Virus record (IMG/VR): IMGVR_UViG_3300050190_000047
Span: 1-38,480 of that record
Reading direction: 5' to 3' (one strand)
DNA length: 38,480 bases
Origin: a virus
A model generated the notes under the pieces. It was not told the origin of the DNA and ran no database searches. It saw only the letters and a program-made list of their open reading frames with translations. A program made the position numbers and the translations under genes. Positions within the stretch are counted from its first letter, which is position 1. Every line of letters starts with the position of its first letter. Below are positions 3,583 through 28,692 of the stretch, piece by piece.

Positions 3583-5052
3583 TTAAACTGCGGGTTCGAT
3601 AATCGGGGGCTTATCATTTACGAGTAATACTTTTTTTATAAGCAATCGAGCGATTTCTTTTTTCTTTTCGAAACTGAGATTGTCGAAATCCTCACTTGGC
3701 ACTTGCATAATTTGGGAAACCTTATTATCTGACATATCTTTTAAAATCTGTTTTTTTCGTTCATCAAGTTTTAATATGCGTTCGTTAATGTAAGCTGCAG
3801 AAGTTATCCCAACATCTTCAATGCTGTCTAAGAGATTTGATATTTTCCCCTCTACGGATAATAATTCTGATTTTAAACTATTATCTTCCTGCTTAATTTC
3901 AATGGGATGCTCCCTTAATTCAACCAACTTATTTTGGATATATTCAGCAACAAAAGGCTCGATATCCGAAACATGAACATCTTTGTGTTTTGCTGTACAT
4001 ATCTTTAAATTGCTTTTACCGGTACAATTAAAAAATATATATTTACCGCCGTCCGAATTAATTACTCTCATTGAATAACCGCAATATCCGCATTTGACAA
4101 GACCGGTGAGCCACGAGTATTGACCGGTTCCTGAGTTTTTAACCTGCTTGTTGCTATCGAGTTTTTCCTGACATAGCAAGAACATATCGGCGGCTATAAT
4201 CCCGTCGTGATGGGCGACTGCGACCAAATGTTCTCCAAGGTTCGTATATTTATTTAGGTTGCGGTCACGCTTTCCAAAAAGCCACAGTCCCTTTACGCCA
4301 ACAAATTCTTCGACTTCATTGTACATAATTAGACCTTTAGTTTTGTAAAAGAAGTAAACATCTGCATTTGCCTTGACATATAACGGATTGTGAAGAATGC
4401 GGCTTATGGAAACACTGTCCCATGTTTTGCGCTGAATTCCAGGTATATTCTCTTTAACCAGACATTCGGCTATTTTCCCCAAAGACATGCTAGTATAGGC
4501 ATACTTTTCAAACATATCCCTAACAATCTGTATGTTTTCATTCGGCGTAAGCATAGACGCAATTTTGCCCTCTATGGTTGTTTTAATTATATCGAAGCCA
4601 AAGGGCGCGGGGCCTCCTAAAAATGCGCCCCTTTTTGCCCTTTGATGATAATTGTCTTTTACACGTTCTGCTATTGTTTCTCTTTCCAACTGCGCAAAAA
4701 CCATAATAATGTATATCATTGCTCTGCCGACTGGGGATGATGTATCAAACTTTTCGTTGACTGAAATAAACTCAACGTGATTCTTATTTAGCATGTCCCA
4801 TATGCGCCCGAAATCGTTTATACTGCGGCTTATTCTGTCAAGGCGGTAAACTATGACCCTGCTGATCTCTGCACTCTCTACGGCTTGCATGAGGGCTTTA
4901 AAAGCAGGGCGGTCAATGTTCTTACCTGAATACCCTTTATCTTGAAATATTTTTGGCTCTTCGTTACATTCTTTGCGGCATAAATCAATTTGCCCCTCTA
5001 TACTTATGCTGTCCTTTTTATCAATTGACTGCCGGGCATAAATAGCGTCCAA
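3583..5052 (-). CDS. int: Large serine recombinase (phage integrase)
   Basis: Catalyses site-specific integration by double-strand cleavage with a serine nucleophile. In the 489-residue protein the N-terminal resolvase domain (about 1-140) has YARQS with catalytic Ser9, the conserved YRLDRISR around 69-76, and the long helix E region QLERETIAERV at 121-131. The recombinase domain follows (about 145-290). A zinc ribbon has Cys 321, 324, 343 and 352, and a coiled-coil segment lies near 395-440, as in the large serine integrase class. Translation starts at TTG 5052, preceded by AGGGGTGAT. attP is normally next to such genes, so 3463-3582 and 5053-5277 are the candidate intervals. Excision would need a directionality factor, not identified with certainty. 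Confidence 0.93.
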   Translation of the reverse strand: MDAIYARQSIDKKDSISIEGQIDLCRKECNEEPKIFQDKGYSGKNIDRPAFKALMQAVESAEISRVIVYRLDRISRSINDFGRIWDMLNKNHVEFISVNEKFDTSSPVGRAMIYIIMVFAQLERETIAERVKDNYHQRAKRGAFLGGPAPFGFDIIKTTIEGKIASMLTPNENIQIVRDMFEKYAYTSMSLGKIAECLVKENIPGIQRKTWDSVSISRILHNPLYVKANADVYFFYKTKGLIMYNEVEEFVGVKGLWLFGKRDRNLNKYTNLGEHLVAVAHHDGIIAADMFLLCQEKLDSNKQVKNSGTGQYSWLTGLVKCGYCGYSMRVINSDGGKYIFFNCTGKSNLKICTAKHKDVHVSDIEPFVAEYIQNKLVELREHPIEIKQEDNSLKSELLSVEGKISNLLDSIEDVGITSAAYINERILKLDERKKQILKDMSDNKVSQIMQVPSEDFDNLSFEKKKEIARLLIKKVLLVNDKPPIIEPAV

Positions 5053-24051: not shown

Positions 24052-25773
24052 ATGAACGAAGAGGATAAAAATAACCGCCAACTATTATATGCGGCGGTTT
24101 ATCAGAGATATATAGAGGCAGGCGCCAACCCAATAGAAGCAACCACAGCTACTGAGGGAATGATATTCAAACACATCAATAATCTATTTGGATTTCAAGG
24201 TCTTGCTTATCAGATGGGCGAAATAAGTTTTCCATTTTTCTGCAAATACTTTCTTCAGGACACTTTCATCCCAAAGCCGAACAATGCCGCGCGCGAACTT
24301 GCGCCGGTGCACCTTGAGGTGTGGGACGAGCTCGACAGGATGTTTCTACAAGACGAATTCGACAAAGAAGAGTTTATACTCCCCAGGGGATGTGCCAAAA
24401 CAACAATAGTTGACTTTGCGTTATCCGTGTGGCTGCACTGCTATAAAAAATCAACTTATACTTTAGTTTGCGGACGCACGGAGCAGGACAGCACAGAATT
24501 TCTTGCACAAACAAGACAAGCTTTTGAGGAGAATAAATATATCCTTGATGCTTTTGGGAAATTGGTAAATACAAAATTAACCGTCAACAAATTGGAACTT
24601 GAACTTTCCAACAAAACAAAAATACAGGCAATATCCTCCACCTCTTCAATGCGTGGTAAAAAGTATGACGGATGCAGGCCCAGCGTCATCATTGCGGATG
24701 ATTACCAAGGCAGAATTGATATTATCACGCAAGAGGCAAGGGATAAAAAATATAACACCTGGATGGAAGACAGCGGCTACGCAGGAGATAAAGCGGTCTA
24801 CCGTAAAAAGGTAAAGATTAAACAGGCAACAAAGTTTATTGTTTGCGGCACAATCTTGCACCGCGACTGTTTCATGAGTCGGCTTCTACTCAACAAAGAT
24901 TATAAGCACATTTTGAAAAGGGCGGTTGATTTTGATGCAGACGACTTCTTCCACGCCGGACAGTGGGAAGAATTTCGTCTTATTTATTTTAACGATAAAC
25001 TTCAAGACAGCGTTTCAGCCGCTAAAGAGTTTTACTTTCAGCACGAGCCAGACATGCAGTATAAAACCATCTGGGAAGATAAGTTTGACTGTTTAGATCT
25101 GGCGATAGATTACTACACCAACCCGCAGGCCTTTAAGCAGGAAATGATGAACGATGCTTCGAAGATTGGCGAGAAGTGGTTTAAAAGTAGCCGAGTTGAT
25201 GATGATATTGAAAATCACACCTTTGCTAAAACAATGCTCTGCGTGGATCCGGCTTCAACGTCAACCCGCAATTCAGATAGTTTCGCTTTCCTTGTTGGCT
25301 CGCTTGCCGACAACGACTTTAAGTATGTCCGCAAGGGTGAACTCCTGAAAATGGACGCGAGAACTGAGTTTGACAAGTACATCGAACATATCATCAAACT
25401 TTTAAGGGATTATTCAGACATTACCTGCGTCTACATCGAAAAGAACACCTTCAACGGCTCTGATGCTAACCGTTTAGAGCAGTTTATAGAGGCCGACCCA
25501 ATGTTAAGGGGCAGGGATTTAACCATCATCAATGAACCCACAAGGGCGAACAAAGACGACAAAATCGCAAGTTGCGTCGCGGATGTGAACAATGGCAGGA
25601 TTATCTTTAATGCAGAGGACACAGATTTCATTCAACAGGTTATGGACTTTGCCGGGCAGGACTTTTCGCAGCACGATGACGCTCCCGACATTGTATCGGA
25701 GTTTGCAAATCGGATAAACGACATTGTTGTTATAGGGACAATTACATTCATGGAAAAGAAATTACTATTTTAA
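24052..25773 (+). CDS. terL: Terminase large subunit
   Basis: ATP-driven motor and nuclease that packages DNA through the portal. In the 573-residue protein the N-terminal ATPase has the Walker A variant LPRGCAKTT at about 110-118, Walker B VIIADDYQG at 212-220, and a following coupling region FIVCGTILHRD. The RNase H-like nuclease starts at MLCVDPAS (Asp near 399), with VYIEKNTFN around 465 and DAPDIVSEFANRI near the end supplying the other acidic residues. Length is normal. SD AAGGAG before ATG 24052. Confidence 0.95.
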   Translation: MNEEDKNNRQLLYAAVYQRYIEAGANPIEATTATEGMIFKHINNLFGFQGLAYQMGEISFPFFCKYFLQDTFIPKPNNAARELAPVHLEVWDELDRMFLQDEFDKEEFILPRGCAKTTIVDFALSVWLHCYKKSTYTLVCGRTEQDSTEFLAQTRQAFEENKYILDAFGKLVNTKLTVNKLELELSNKTKIQAISSTSSMRGKKYDGCRPSVIIADDYQGRIDIITQEARDKKYNTWMEDSGYAGDKAVYRKKVKIKQATKFIVCGTILHRDCFMSRLLLNKDYKHILKRAVDFDADDFFHAGQWEEFRLIYFNDKLQDSVSAAKEFYFQHEPDMQYKTIWEDKFDCLDLAIDYYTNPQAFKQEMMNDASKIGEKWFKSSRVDDDIENHTFAKTMLCVDPASTSTRNSDSFAFLVGSLADNDFKYVRKGELLKMDARTEFDKYIEHIIKLLRDYSDITCVYIEKNTFNGSDANRLEQFIEADPMLRGRDLTIINEPTRANKDDKIASCVADVNNGRIIFNAEDTDFIQQVMDFAGQDFSQHDDAPDIVSEFANRINDIVVIGTITFMEKKLLF

Positions 25774-25787
25774 GGAGATGCAAGTAT

Positions 25788-26162
25788 ATGGATGAGCAAT
25801 TGAACAATTTAAAATCCGGTGATGAAATTAAGTTTTCAGAAGATAGGCTATGGTTCAAAGTAGTTGGTAAAAATGAGCGATTTGTTATTGCAATTACCAA
25901 AAAGGTCTATAACGCGAATATCAGAAATAAGACGTGGTATTACACAATCATAGATACTGTTGAAAATATTCGTGGACGCGTAAACCTTATTTTTGAACTG
26001 TATGACTTTGAAAAGCAGAGTGATATTGATAAGGTTCTTTCTGAACTCGGCCCGCAAGGATGCCATGAAAATAAAGAAAAGGGATATTGGGAAGAAAGCG
26101 AACTGGCTATATCTTCTCGGAATTGCATATCAGCAAATATTTTAAAAATAAAAGCCGCTTAA
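25788..26162 (+). CDS. Protein of unknown function between terminase and portal
   Basis: 124 residues from ATG 25788 (SD AAGGAG). Beta-rich: LKSGDEIKFSEDRLWFKVVGKNERFVIAI, then TWYYTIIDTVENIRGRVNLIFELYDFEKQSDIDKVLSEL. A similar 'YYTIID ... N.IF.LYDY' plan occurs in small accessory proteins of phages and plasmids. Its stop codon lies inside a terminator hairpin. No function recognised. Confidence 0.7.
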   Translation: MDEQLNNLKSGDEIKFSEDRLWFKVVGKNERFVIAITKKVYNANIRNKTWYYTIIDTVENIRGRVNLIFELYDFEKQSDIDKVLSELGPQGCHENKEKGYWEESELAISSRNCISANILKIKAA

Positions 26163-26175
26163 AGCGGTTATTTTT
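26151..26175 (+). terminator. Terminator overlapping the stop of the 25788-26162 gene
   Basis: CCGCT-TAA-AGCGG with flanking pairs, followed by TTATTTTT. The stop codon TAA is the loop of the hairpin. Confidence 0.65.
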
Positions 26176-26198
26176 ATGCCGTTTAGGAGGCGAACCGC

Positions 26199-26258
26199 TT
26201 GTTTGATGTAAACGCAAACCGAGAGATATTGACAAAGGTAAAGCCTACTTTTCAGTAG
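26199..26258 (+). pseudogene. Remnant of the portal gene start
   Basis: From TTG 26199, with a strong SD TAGGAGG 8 bases upstream, the frame reads LFDVNANREILTKVKPTFQ then TAG. This matches the N-terminus of the intact portal protein, IFDINKNKELLTKVKSNFELQ, at 27280. At DNA level GACAAAGGTAAA is shared while codons around it differ, so it is a diverged homologous copy and not a recent exact duplication. It appears to be the original start of the portal gene, cut off by the endonuclease cassette. Homology ends at 26252, where the cassette begins. Confidence 0.75.
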
Positions 26259-26263
26259 GCTTT
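26240..26263. terminator. Bidirectional terminator at the left edge of the cassette
   Basis: Arms AAAGCCTAC / GTAGGCTTT with loop TTTTCA. It contains the stop codon of the portal remnant (plus strand) and of the RHH gene (minus strand). The core TACTTTTCAGTAGG recurs at 27239-27252. Confidence 0.65.
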
Positions 26264-26382
26264 AGATAGTCTTTCAATATTTTATTTATCTGGCTGCTTA
26301 TACTTCTCCCTTCTTCTACTGCAAACACTTTCAATCTTTCCAGTACTTCTTCATCAAGAGTTATCGCTATTTTGTTTTTCAT
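26245..26382 (-). CDS. Ribbon-helix-helix (Arc/CopG-like) repressor
   Basis: 45 residues: MKNKIAITLDEEVLERLKVF, then AVEEGRSISSQINKILKDYLKPTEK. This is a complete ribbon-helix-helix domain: strand KIAITLD, helix EEVLERLKVFAVEE, turn GRS, helix ISSQINKILKDYL. SD GAGGTGAT before ATG 26382. It is divergent from the HNH gene, and its probable operator is the tandem repeat AAAGT(G/A)TGAT in the HNH promoter, so it likely represses both itself and the endonuclease. Confidence 0.8.
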   Translation of the reverse strand: MKNKIAITLDEEVLERLKVFAVEEGRSISSQINKILKDYLKPTEK

Positions 26383-26399
26383 ATTATCACCTCAACGGT

Positions 26400-26450
26400 A
26401 GTATAACATATAATTAATGTATTGTAAAGTGTGATAAAGTATGATATAAT
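26400..26450. promoter_or_regulatory. Back-to-back divergent promoters with overlapping -35 boxes
   Basis: Rightward: TTGTAA (26422-26427), 17 bases, TATAAT (26445-26450). Leftward: TTTACA (26428-26423), 17 bases, TATACT (26405-26400). The two -35 boxes occupy the same bases on opposite strands. A tandem direct repeat AAAGTGTGAT / AAAGTATGAT (26426-26445) fills the spacer of the rightward promoter, a good RHH operator candidate. Confidence 0.7.
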
Positions 26451-26468
26451 ATATATGAGGTGATGGAG

Positions 26469-27227
26469 ATGGAAACAAAAGTATGTATAAGATGTGGAAA
26501 AGAGCTTCCAAAGACGGACGAATACTTTCAATCTACAAAATCTAATAAAGACGGGCTCCGTGGAGAATGTAAAGAATGCACTAAAGAACGGATGAAACAG
26601 TATTATGCAAAACATCAAGAGCTTTTAACTGAAAAAGCTAAGCAATACCGTAAAGATAACAAAGAGTATATATCCGAATGGAAAAAGGAATACGGAAAAA
26701 ACAATGAGCAGTTAGTTGAGCATAAAAAACAATATTATCAAAACAATAAGAAAAAAATTCACGAACATAATAGTCGATACTATCAAGCCAATAAAGAAGC
26801 AACAATTTTGCGGAGCAAACAATATTATGAAACCAATAAAGAAAATATTATCAAATCAAACACAGAATATCACAAGCAATATCGGCAAGAGAATTCAGAA
26901 AAATATCGTATTCATTGCCAAAAACGTAGAGCAAAAATTCGCAAATTGCCCTACACTTTAACTCTTATACAATGGGAAGAAACCAAACTACATTTTGATA
27001 ATAAATGCGCTTATTGTGGTAAAGAAGTGCCTTTGGTTCAGGAACATTTTATAGCACTTTCTAAGGGTGGAGAGTATACTCACAATAACATCTTGCCCGC
27101 TTGCAAAAATTGTAACAGTAGTAAAAACAATAAAGACTTTTTTCAATGGTATCTAAAATATAAATATTTCTCAAAGAAAAGAGAAAGATACATACTCGAA
27201 TTTCTAAATTATAAAAATAAAATATAA
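26469..27227 (+). CDS. HNH homing endonuclease
   Basis: 252 residues from ATG 26469 (SD GAGGTGAT, 8 bases upstream). N-terminal zinc knuckles CIRCGKELP and CKECTKERM at about 6-40; a long basic helical middle (about 40-160) made of loose 16-residue repeats around QYY-x2-NKE; then the nuclease domain, CAYCGKEVPLVQEHFIALSKG and NNILPACKNCNSSKNNKDF, where His of EHF, Asn of NNIL and the two CxxC pairs form the HNH/beta-beta-alpha metal site. The repeated helix probably lies along DNA for target recognition. Its promoter faces the RHH repressor and it ends in its own terminator. Confidence 0.88.
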   Translation: METKVCIRCGKELPKTDEYFQSTKSNKDGLRGECKECTKERMKQYYAKHQELLTEKAKQYRKDNKEYISEWKKEYGKNNEQLVEHKKQYYQNNKKKIHEHNSRYYQANKEATILRSKQYYETNKENIIKSNTEYHKQYRQENSEKYRIHCQKRRAKIRKLPYTLTLIQWEETKLHFDNKCAYCGKEVPLVQEHFIALSKGGEYTHNNILPACKNCNSSKNNKDFFQWYLKYKYFSKKRERYILEFLNYKNKI

Positions 27228-27232
27228 CAATT

Positions 27233-27260
27233 AGCACTTACTTTTCAGTAGGTGCTTTTT
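27233..27260 (+). terminator. Terminator of the HNH gene
   Basis: Arms AGCACTTAC / GTAGGTGCT (one G-U pair) with loop TTTTCA, followed by TTTTATTTG. Its loop and inner stem are the same as those of the hairpin at 26240-26263. Confidence 0.8.
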
Positions 27261-27270
27261 ATTTGAGAGG

Positions 27271-28692
27271 GTGGTTGTCATTTTTGATATTAACAAGAAC
27301 AAAGAGTTGCTGACAAAGGTAAAATCAAATTTTGAACTTCAATACCACGTAAACGTTAAGATGTACCTATATTACATGGGATTGACAGATACTGGAAGTA
27401 ACTTTAATGCTTCATCTAATGGAAGTTATGACGACATCTATATAAACGAATTCAATTTGGATGCCGAGGGCGCGGGCAATTACAATTATGTGAACGACCG
27501 TTACGACCATCGCATCAACACGAATTTCATAAAAAAGTTTGTCAAAGAGGAAGTCAGTTACAGCGTCGGCAATGATATCACCTATACGAGCCATAAAGGT
27601 GACGACAAAATAATTGACCTGCTTAGAATATCAACCGCTCACTGGAAAGCCGATCACGACGCAACACTGGCAAAAAATATGCTAATATATTCAAACGCTT
27701 ACGAGCTTTATTACATCGACAAGGATGCTCAATTCTGCGCGCGGGTTATTTCTCCCCGGCATGGTATTGCTTATGTCGACCCGTTCGATAATGTCATATT
27801 TTTTATGCATATTTTCAGAAAAGCCTACGAAGCCACAAAGCAATATATCGACATTTATACCGATAGTGAGATTATCCACTGCGATGATGTGTTTACGGAA
27901 ATAAGCAGAACGTCCCACCCCTTTGGCTGCGTCCCTGTTGGCGTGGCTAATTTATCAGAAGAGGGATGGCTCGACAGCCTTTATAAAGACCTCAAGACCT
28001 TGCAGGATGCCTATGAAACCAATTTGAGCGACATATCCAGCGAGATTACCGAGTTTAGGAACGCTTATTTAATCCTCAATAACCTCGACTTGCAAGACGG
28101 TGACCTTGCATGGATGAAAAAAAATGGCATCATGAAAACTAAAAGTAAAGATGGTTCTGCTTCATGGCTTATCAAAACCATCAACGACACTTTCATCCAA
28201 AACACCCTCACAACCCTTGAAGATAAGATGTTTCAGATCTCTTGCCATATAAACAGCAACGAGAAAATGAGTGCCAACACTTCAAGCCTTGCATTGAGGG
28301 CCCGCCTCATATCCCTTGAAGAAAAATGCAAACTTAATCAAAAAGCCCTTGCGAATTGCGTGAAAACAAGACTGCAAATGCTCTTGATTTACATGAATGG
28401 CTTGAAAAACACATCTTACGATTATAGGGACATCAAAGTCAAGTTTACACCCAATATTCCGAGTGACGACCTGACAAATAGCACGGTTGTCACCGCTTTA
28501 GGCGATAAATTAAGCACCGAAACTGCCTTATCCCTATTCAGTTTCATCGACAACCCCGCAAATGAGGTCAAGAAAGCCCAAGCGGAGGCAAAGGCTAATA
28601 GCATAGGGGCAGGGCTTTTGAATCCTGCTCAGCCTCCTGCAAGCTCTCCGGCTATGCCGGATAAGGCAGCCATGATGGGGGCTAAGATGTGA
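27271..28692 (+). CDS. Portal protein, SPP1 gp6-like
   Basis: Dodecameric ring at the capsid vertex through which DNA is packaged and ejected. 473 residues from GTG 27271, or 470 from ATT 27280. Typical SPP1-family features are YDHRINTNFIKKFVKEEVSYSVGN near 70-93 and the C-terminal stem-crown region SSLALRARLISLEEKCKLNQKAL. By alignment with the upstream remnant the native start is at the codon before TTTGAT, which here is ATT (27280); GAGAGGG is well spaced from it but touches the GTG. The gene is intact despite the cassette upstream, and overlaps the next by GTGA. Confidence 0.92.
   Translation: MVVIFDINKNKELLTKVKSNFELQYHVNVKMYLYYMGLTDTGSNFNASSNGSYDDIYINEFNLDAEGAGNYNYVNDRYDHRINTNFIKKFVKEEVSYSVGNDITYTSHKGDDKIIDLLRISTAHWKADHDATLAKNMLIYSNAYELYYIDKDAQFCARVISPRHGIAYVDPFDNVIFFMHIFRKAYEATKQYIDIYTDSEIIHCDDVFTEISRTSHPFGCVPVGVANLSEEGWLDSLYKDLKTLQDAYETNLSDISSEITEFRNAYLILNNLDLQDGDLAWMKKNGIMKTKSKDGSASWLIKTINDTFIQNTLTTLEDKMFQISCHINSNEKMSANTSSLALRARLISLEEKCKLNQKALANCVKTRLQMLLIYMNGLKNTSYDYRDIKVKFTPNIPSDDLTNSTVVTALGDKLSTETALSLFSFIDNPANEVKKAQAEAKANSIGAGLLNPAQPPASSPAMPDKAAMMGAKM

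Follow-up and report, generated by a model that had tools for sequence, protein, structure and literature searches.

The window analysed here, a stretch of 38,480 nucleotides, is an IMG/VR record, and all the sequences that we compared with it are metagenome contigs. It comes from a tailed phage, which carries genes for a serine recombinase, lysin, DnaB helicase, DNA methylase, terminase, SPP1-type portal, minor head and tail proteins; the large serine recombinase (3583-5052, minus strand) suggests that the phage is temperate. The gene of the terminase large subunit (24052-25773, plus strand; PHROG 38, E 5e-82, also matched by tblastn) is native, with 95% amino acid identity to contig L002, and its 3' end, which forms the left flank of the region studied, shows no divergence from L002. 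From the terminase to the portal gene we found, in this order, a small ORF, a leftover portal start, a ribbon-helix-helix (RHH) gene on the minus strand and an HNH nuclease gene on the plus strand. The small ORF (25788-26162, plus strand) is missing from the sister phages and had no Pfam, no significant PHROG and no PADLOC match, nor any relatives among the searched viral contigs. With its own terminator-like hairpin (26153-26176, plus strand), it is a second insertion at the terminase-portal junction. Terminator-like hairpins are abundant in the region (5 found vs 0.7 expected). Three of them, oriented in the sense direction, separate terminase and portal (26153-26176, 26239-26264 and 27233-27256), and late transcription must therefore pass through them or start anew.

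The leftover portal start is preceded by a Shine-Dalgarno sequence of the old portal gene, AGGAGG (26185-26190, plus strand), for which the sister phages have AGGAGG or AAGGCGG at the same place. Eight bases downstream, a frame opens with TTG at 26199, reads LFDVNANREILTKVKPTFQ and stops at 26256-26258, as the earlier note on this DNA had described. The native part of it (TTG FDVNANREILTKV; 26199-26242, plus strand) is a remnant of a portal 5' end. Its resemblance to a portal gene is not due to chance, because positions 26200-26242 equal the portal start of the cassette-free L002 at 42 of 43 nucleotides. Over the 41 coding nucleotides the remnant agrees with L002 at 40 positions, with the next closest relatives at 33 and with the window's own downstream portal copy at only 31, and the statement that the two portal starts are homologous yet diverged is thereby borne out. 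The upstream peptide had been read as portal over its whole length, which is right up to 26242 but not for its last residues, since the PTFQ/TAG end of the apparent frame is encoded by the terminator hairpin of the RHH gene (TAAAGCCTACTTTTCAGTAGGCTTTA, 26239-26264). Such a remnant beside a cassette was seen only in the window among some 40 HNH relatives tested. A candidate duplicated start at a second HNH locus, L159 from a cyanobacterium, turned out to be a spurious overlapping frame.

The same bidirectional hairpin (26239-26264, minus strand) terminates the RHH gene, forms the left edge of the cassette and encodes PTFQ and the stop codon. Its core CCTACTTTTCAGTAGGCTT also terminates a related cassette in L103, at an unrelated site between two other genes, and left-edge hairpins resembling that of the window exist in L007, L010/L012 and L197. 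The RHH protein (26245-26382, minus strand; 45 aa) is encoded divergently to the nuclease and matches PF07878 (E 1e-9) and the Arc-like PHROG 3180; it is presumed to be an autorepressor. A predicted divergent promoter region (26400-26450) contains a -10 element TATAAT directly before GAGGTGATGG of the nuclease, where the best consensus matches reach 10/12 on each strand with a match count not above that of shuffles, and the sequence around TATAATATATATGAGGTG in this region is common to L007 and L103. The HNH nuclease (26469-27227, start approximate, plus strand; 252 aa from ATG) matches PF01844 (E 3e-8), the HNH/endonuclease VII families PHROG 1035 and 2214, and the PDB HNH structure 4h9d (E 5e-7), and the family alignment has invariant C-x2-C, H and N positions. 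The earlier note had spoken of an HNH/RHH pair; both genes are identified, RHH on the minus strand and HNH on the plus strand. The HNH gene has its own start and stop codons and its own terminator (27233-27256, plus strand), it lies outside any intron or intein, and a search for intron-like RNA in the region gave no match to an Rfam intron family. Behind the terminator, the right edge of the cassette, TTATTTGAGAGGGTGGTTGTC (27259-27279, plus strand), supplies a ribosome-binding site to the downstream gene, and similar edges are found in L009, L012 and L103.

The intact portal gene is of the SPP1 type (27271-28692, plus strand; PF05133, E 1e-87) and its product starts ..IFDINKNKELLTKVKSNFELQ. 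GTG at 27271 is the first canonical start codon, while ATT at 27280 is also possible. In this phage group ATT could serve as portal start in L020/L021, L006 and L016 as well as at 27280 of the window; in L021, an in-frame TGA stands directly before ATT TTT GAT, which lies behind AGGAAGGTGAT, and more than 20 codons pass before the next ATG. The 5' tract of the portal (27283-27459, plus strand; about 177 nt, end estimated) is foreign. Compared with L002, the identity is about 73% over the codons of the remnant, 68% over the first ~177 nt and 87% thereafter, and the changepoint at about nt 177 has an LR of 35.4, whereas 100 codon-block permutations gave at most 21.6. In the tree of the sequence past nt ~180, the window joins L002, L003 and L004 (support 99/99). 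Over the first 174 nt it falls outside these three, in a stretch so short that a native clade is not rejected (p 0.36). The length of the tract in the window is uncertain, because the first ~140 nt of the portal vary even between empty sisters (L002 vs L003, LR 16 vs 13). With the first 66 residues as query, no close donor of the portal start was found, the best match reaching 74% over the 5' tract. On these comparisons, the downstream portal start appears to be of another lineage than L002.

To look at the uninterrupted state, we used relatives without the cassette. A first contig scan with the portal matched no relatives. L002, whose terminase and portal are 95% and 90% identical to those of the window, has no cassette, and the same is true of L003 and L004; with terminases 91-95% identical, these three phages make the cassette optional between conserved genes. 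In them, as in most of about 65 terminase-portal junctions, the terminase stop is followed by some 15-75 bases and the portal start with nothing between, and nearly all of these junctions are without any nuclease. As predicted, the uninterrupted allele in L002, L003 and L004 runs from the upstream frame straight into the portal. Two observations had been named in advance as speaking against an insertion, namely a cassette-free phage with both frames, or a cassette-free portal start that resembles the downstream copy only. Neither was encountered, because none of the ~65 surveyed junctions has the short upstream copy and the full portal together, and it is the remnant that fits the L002 start.

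The cassette belongs to a wider family. A divergent RHH gene lies less than 90 bases upstream in 15 of 41 HNH relatives (14 by script count plus L102, whose read-through frame overlaps). Small divergent RHH genes directly upstream of HNH or GIY-YIG genes were noticed in L007, L070, L103/L104, L102, L096, L106, L110, L111, L114, L115, L118, L120, L123, L158, L197, L198, L263 and L268 (in the last, the partner is an ORF with no type assigned). RHH proteins of this family also face GIY-YIG nucleases at terminase-portal, portal-minor head and scaffold-capsid junctions. Since the RHH proteins of L103 (with HNH) and L198 (with GIY-YIG) are close relatives, the regulator is exchanged between nuclease classes. 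The cassette is a modular one in which a divergent RHH gene faces either an HNH or a GIY-YIG nuclease. The left edges of the cassettes are RHH terminator hairpins, and at the right edge of several HNH cassettes a terminator precedes TTTATTTGAGAGG, which resembles a ribosome-binding site serving the gene behind. In the open full-text literature we found nothing that joins RHH regulators and homing endonucleases. Generally, the HNH relatives are intergenic and occupy many sites. The earlier claim that the cassette targets the first codons of a gene was therefore overstated, with the window as the only remnant-bearing case.

Flanking-sequence changepoints exist beside the cassettes of the window, L007, L009/L010 and L010/L012, and in three of these other cases (L007, the L010 portal and the L010/L012 minor head gene) the downstream gene has a foreign 5' end. 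For example, L007/L022, with a terminase 94% identical to that of the window, carry an RHH and GIY-YIG cassette at the terminase-portal junction; the portal is foreign for 732 nt (LR 66.7 vs 14.4), and the last ~120 nt of the terminase are also diverged, giving a two-sided tract. L009 and L010 are identical from the left end of their shared stretch, across an HNH cassette, to about nt 506 of the portal, after which the identity drops to 81%. In L010/L012, a further RHH and GIY-YIG cassette joins the portal gene precisely at its stop codon. The 600 nt to its left are 99.7% identical to the empty L011, while the minor head gene behind it is 62% identical to L011 over its first 408 nt and 96% beyond (LR 174 vs 25), and the first 100 residues of its product are 69% identical to a distant phage group vs 46% to L011. 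Thus an abrupt left edge and a foreign start of the right-hand gene are not peculiar to the window; the scrap of the old gene is. Replacement of the start is not universal either, because the gene downstream of the HNH and RHH cassette in L103 shows no 5' jump relative to L009. Besides, at L011 8308 (L106 3704), the scaffold gene behind an HNH and RHH cassette has a 5' end unlike that of L009/L010/L012 and is 88% identical in the rest, where either allele could be the native one.

That a nuclease cassette was inserted in the portal start together with a donor start is well supported. In our reading, intronless homing probably carried the RHH and HNH cassette from a diverged phage to an L002-like one. 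A freestanding, self-regulated cassette, consisting of divergent RHH and HNH genes with their own promoters and terminators, would have entered from the diverged phage, and its HNH nuclease would have broken the cassette-free portal gene near the 5' end. The right-hand end would then have been repaired by homologous recombination on the donor portal, by which the donor start (about 180 nt) and the cassette were copied, while the left-hand end, having no good homology, would have been joined to the left edge of the cassette through a few shared bases (TAAA). Of the old portal start a 43-nt scrap would remain, and the portal gene would now begin with donor codons behind a ribosome-binding site from the cassette edge; the breakpoint at 26242 may be at or near the nuclease cut.

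Homing is favoured because the cassette-free sisters read through, the remnant fits L002 and the downstream start does not. It is also favoured by the portal changepoint at ~177 nt together with the parallel cases L007/L022, L009/L010 and L010/L012, by the same hairpin and edge motifs at cassette edges at other sites, and by the lack of intron-like RNA in the region. What counts against it is that only one genome bears a remnant, that the portal start varies even among empty sisters, and that the portal is mosaic also between genomes with like cassette content (L010 vs L012). The proposal that a homing cassette entered the portal 5' end and brought a donor start is partly supported, by the remnant, the read-through sisters and the jump in identity; no close donor was found.

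A serious rival is plain mosaicism without the nuclease, in which a random illegitimate crossover joined an L002-like phage to a phage with the cassette and its portal, and selection kept the working portal. The few bases of homology at the left junction would suit it, and portal and minor head genes are mosaic even between L010 and L012, which are alike in cassette content. However, the left junction lies exactly at the hairpin edge of the cassette, as it does in L010/L012 and L103, and several different nuclease cassettes adjoin foreign 5' tracts, so we consider this explanation unlikely. An assembler could also have fused two strains, one supplying the terminase side up to 26242 and the other the cassette and portal, as metagenome contigs are used throughout and the sample series evidently contains mixed strains. 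Such a chimera is improbable, since there is almost no shared sequence at the join, the portal is L002-like again beyond ~177 nt, and comparable cassette structures occur in contigs from separate samples (L007/L022 and L009/L010/L025).

Two further explanations are very improbable. The gene sits between terminase and portal, where the packaging HNH genes of Skunavirus are located (PMC12724721), and it might belong to the terminase/portal module as a packaging HNH of the kind known from HK97-like and Skunavirus phages, with the short frame as a leader peptide. Yet it is missing from sisters with a 95% identical terminase and is not conserved at the ~65 junctions, its relatives occupy many sites with RHH partners, and the short frame is a portal fragment for which no relative has a comparable leader. 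Equally hard to credit are a group I intron, an intein and a transposon that duplicated a 13-bp target site. The direct repeat flanking the insert (TGACAAAGGTAAA at 26230 and 27311) would point to the last of these, but its two occurrences are corresponding codons of homologous copies, aligned in register, and what comes after the second occurrence does not resemble L002. Group I and group II introns were rejected on the Rfam result, and the nuclease is out of frame with the portal.

Integrative elements like SXT in prfC sit in the start of a gene and provide a substitute start. Elements of this type have a site-specific recombinase and attachment sites, whereas the window cassette has none. 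Integration in prfC is the documented site of SXT (PMC3715440). In T-even phages, the freestanding homing endonucleases seg and mob spread by intronless homing with co-conversion (PMC2988022), and the window likewise has an optional gene of a homing nuclease family, co-conversion of a flank and no intron or intein. The T4 seg and mob genes are optional HNH or GIY-YIG genes between conserved genes, which act on the neighbour and co-convert flanking markers (PMC2988022). The T4 cases described there are intergenic, unlike the window, where the left junction falls within the target gene and part of the old start survives as a scrap; the regulation described for T4 involves promoters, terminators and RNA structure, with no RHH partner mentioned (PMC2988022).

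Mobile ORF elements of fungal mitochondria, known from Allomyces atp6 and from Glomus atp6, atp9, cox2 and nad3 (PMC3630166), are similar in that an endonuclease element lies in an essential gene, supplies a diverged gene end and leaves a native remnant nearly identical to the sister species. The window shares the pattern of a native end kept as a sister-matching remnant (42/43) beside a foreign functional start (about 73%). The fungal elements replace the carboxy-terminal end in mitochondria (PMC3630166), whereas here the amino-terminal end of a phage gene is replaced. In Tremella, mitochondrial introns carry an N-terminal duplication and partial gene replacement was proposed (PMC7315562); there, too, foreign and native copies of a gene segment flank a mobile element. 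Those elements are annotated introns of fungal genes with copies of about exon size, while the window cassette is freestanding, has its own regulator and left 43 nt. What sets the phage case apart from the fungal examples is that it is freestanding, amino-terminal and, apparently, self-regulated.

Replacement of the downstream start recurs beside other cassettes, though it may merely accompany homing into the neighbourhood of a gene start rather than serve specifically to rescue the gene. It is possible, and we suggest it only tentatively, that the mobile unit comprises the RHH-controlled cassette with its interchangeable HNH or GIY-YIG enzyme, the replacement ribosome-binding site and the 5' segment of the downstream essential gene, and that it spreads between diverged phages one-sidedly at gene starts, with homology on the right only and the gene kept alive without splicing. 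Because the remnant, a sister without the cassette and the foreign start can all be compared, the insertion point can be read almost to the base and the cut site predicted. By homing of this kind, an essential gene in a compact phage genome could take in a selfish nuclease gene and survive, and the mosaic amino termini of capsid genes near such cassettes would be explained. The paired RHH gene suggests that the homing cassette is under repressor control and that its nucleases can be exchanged.
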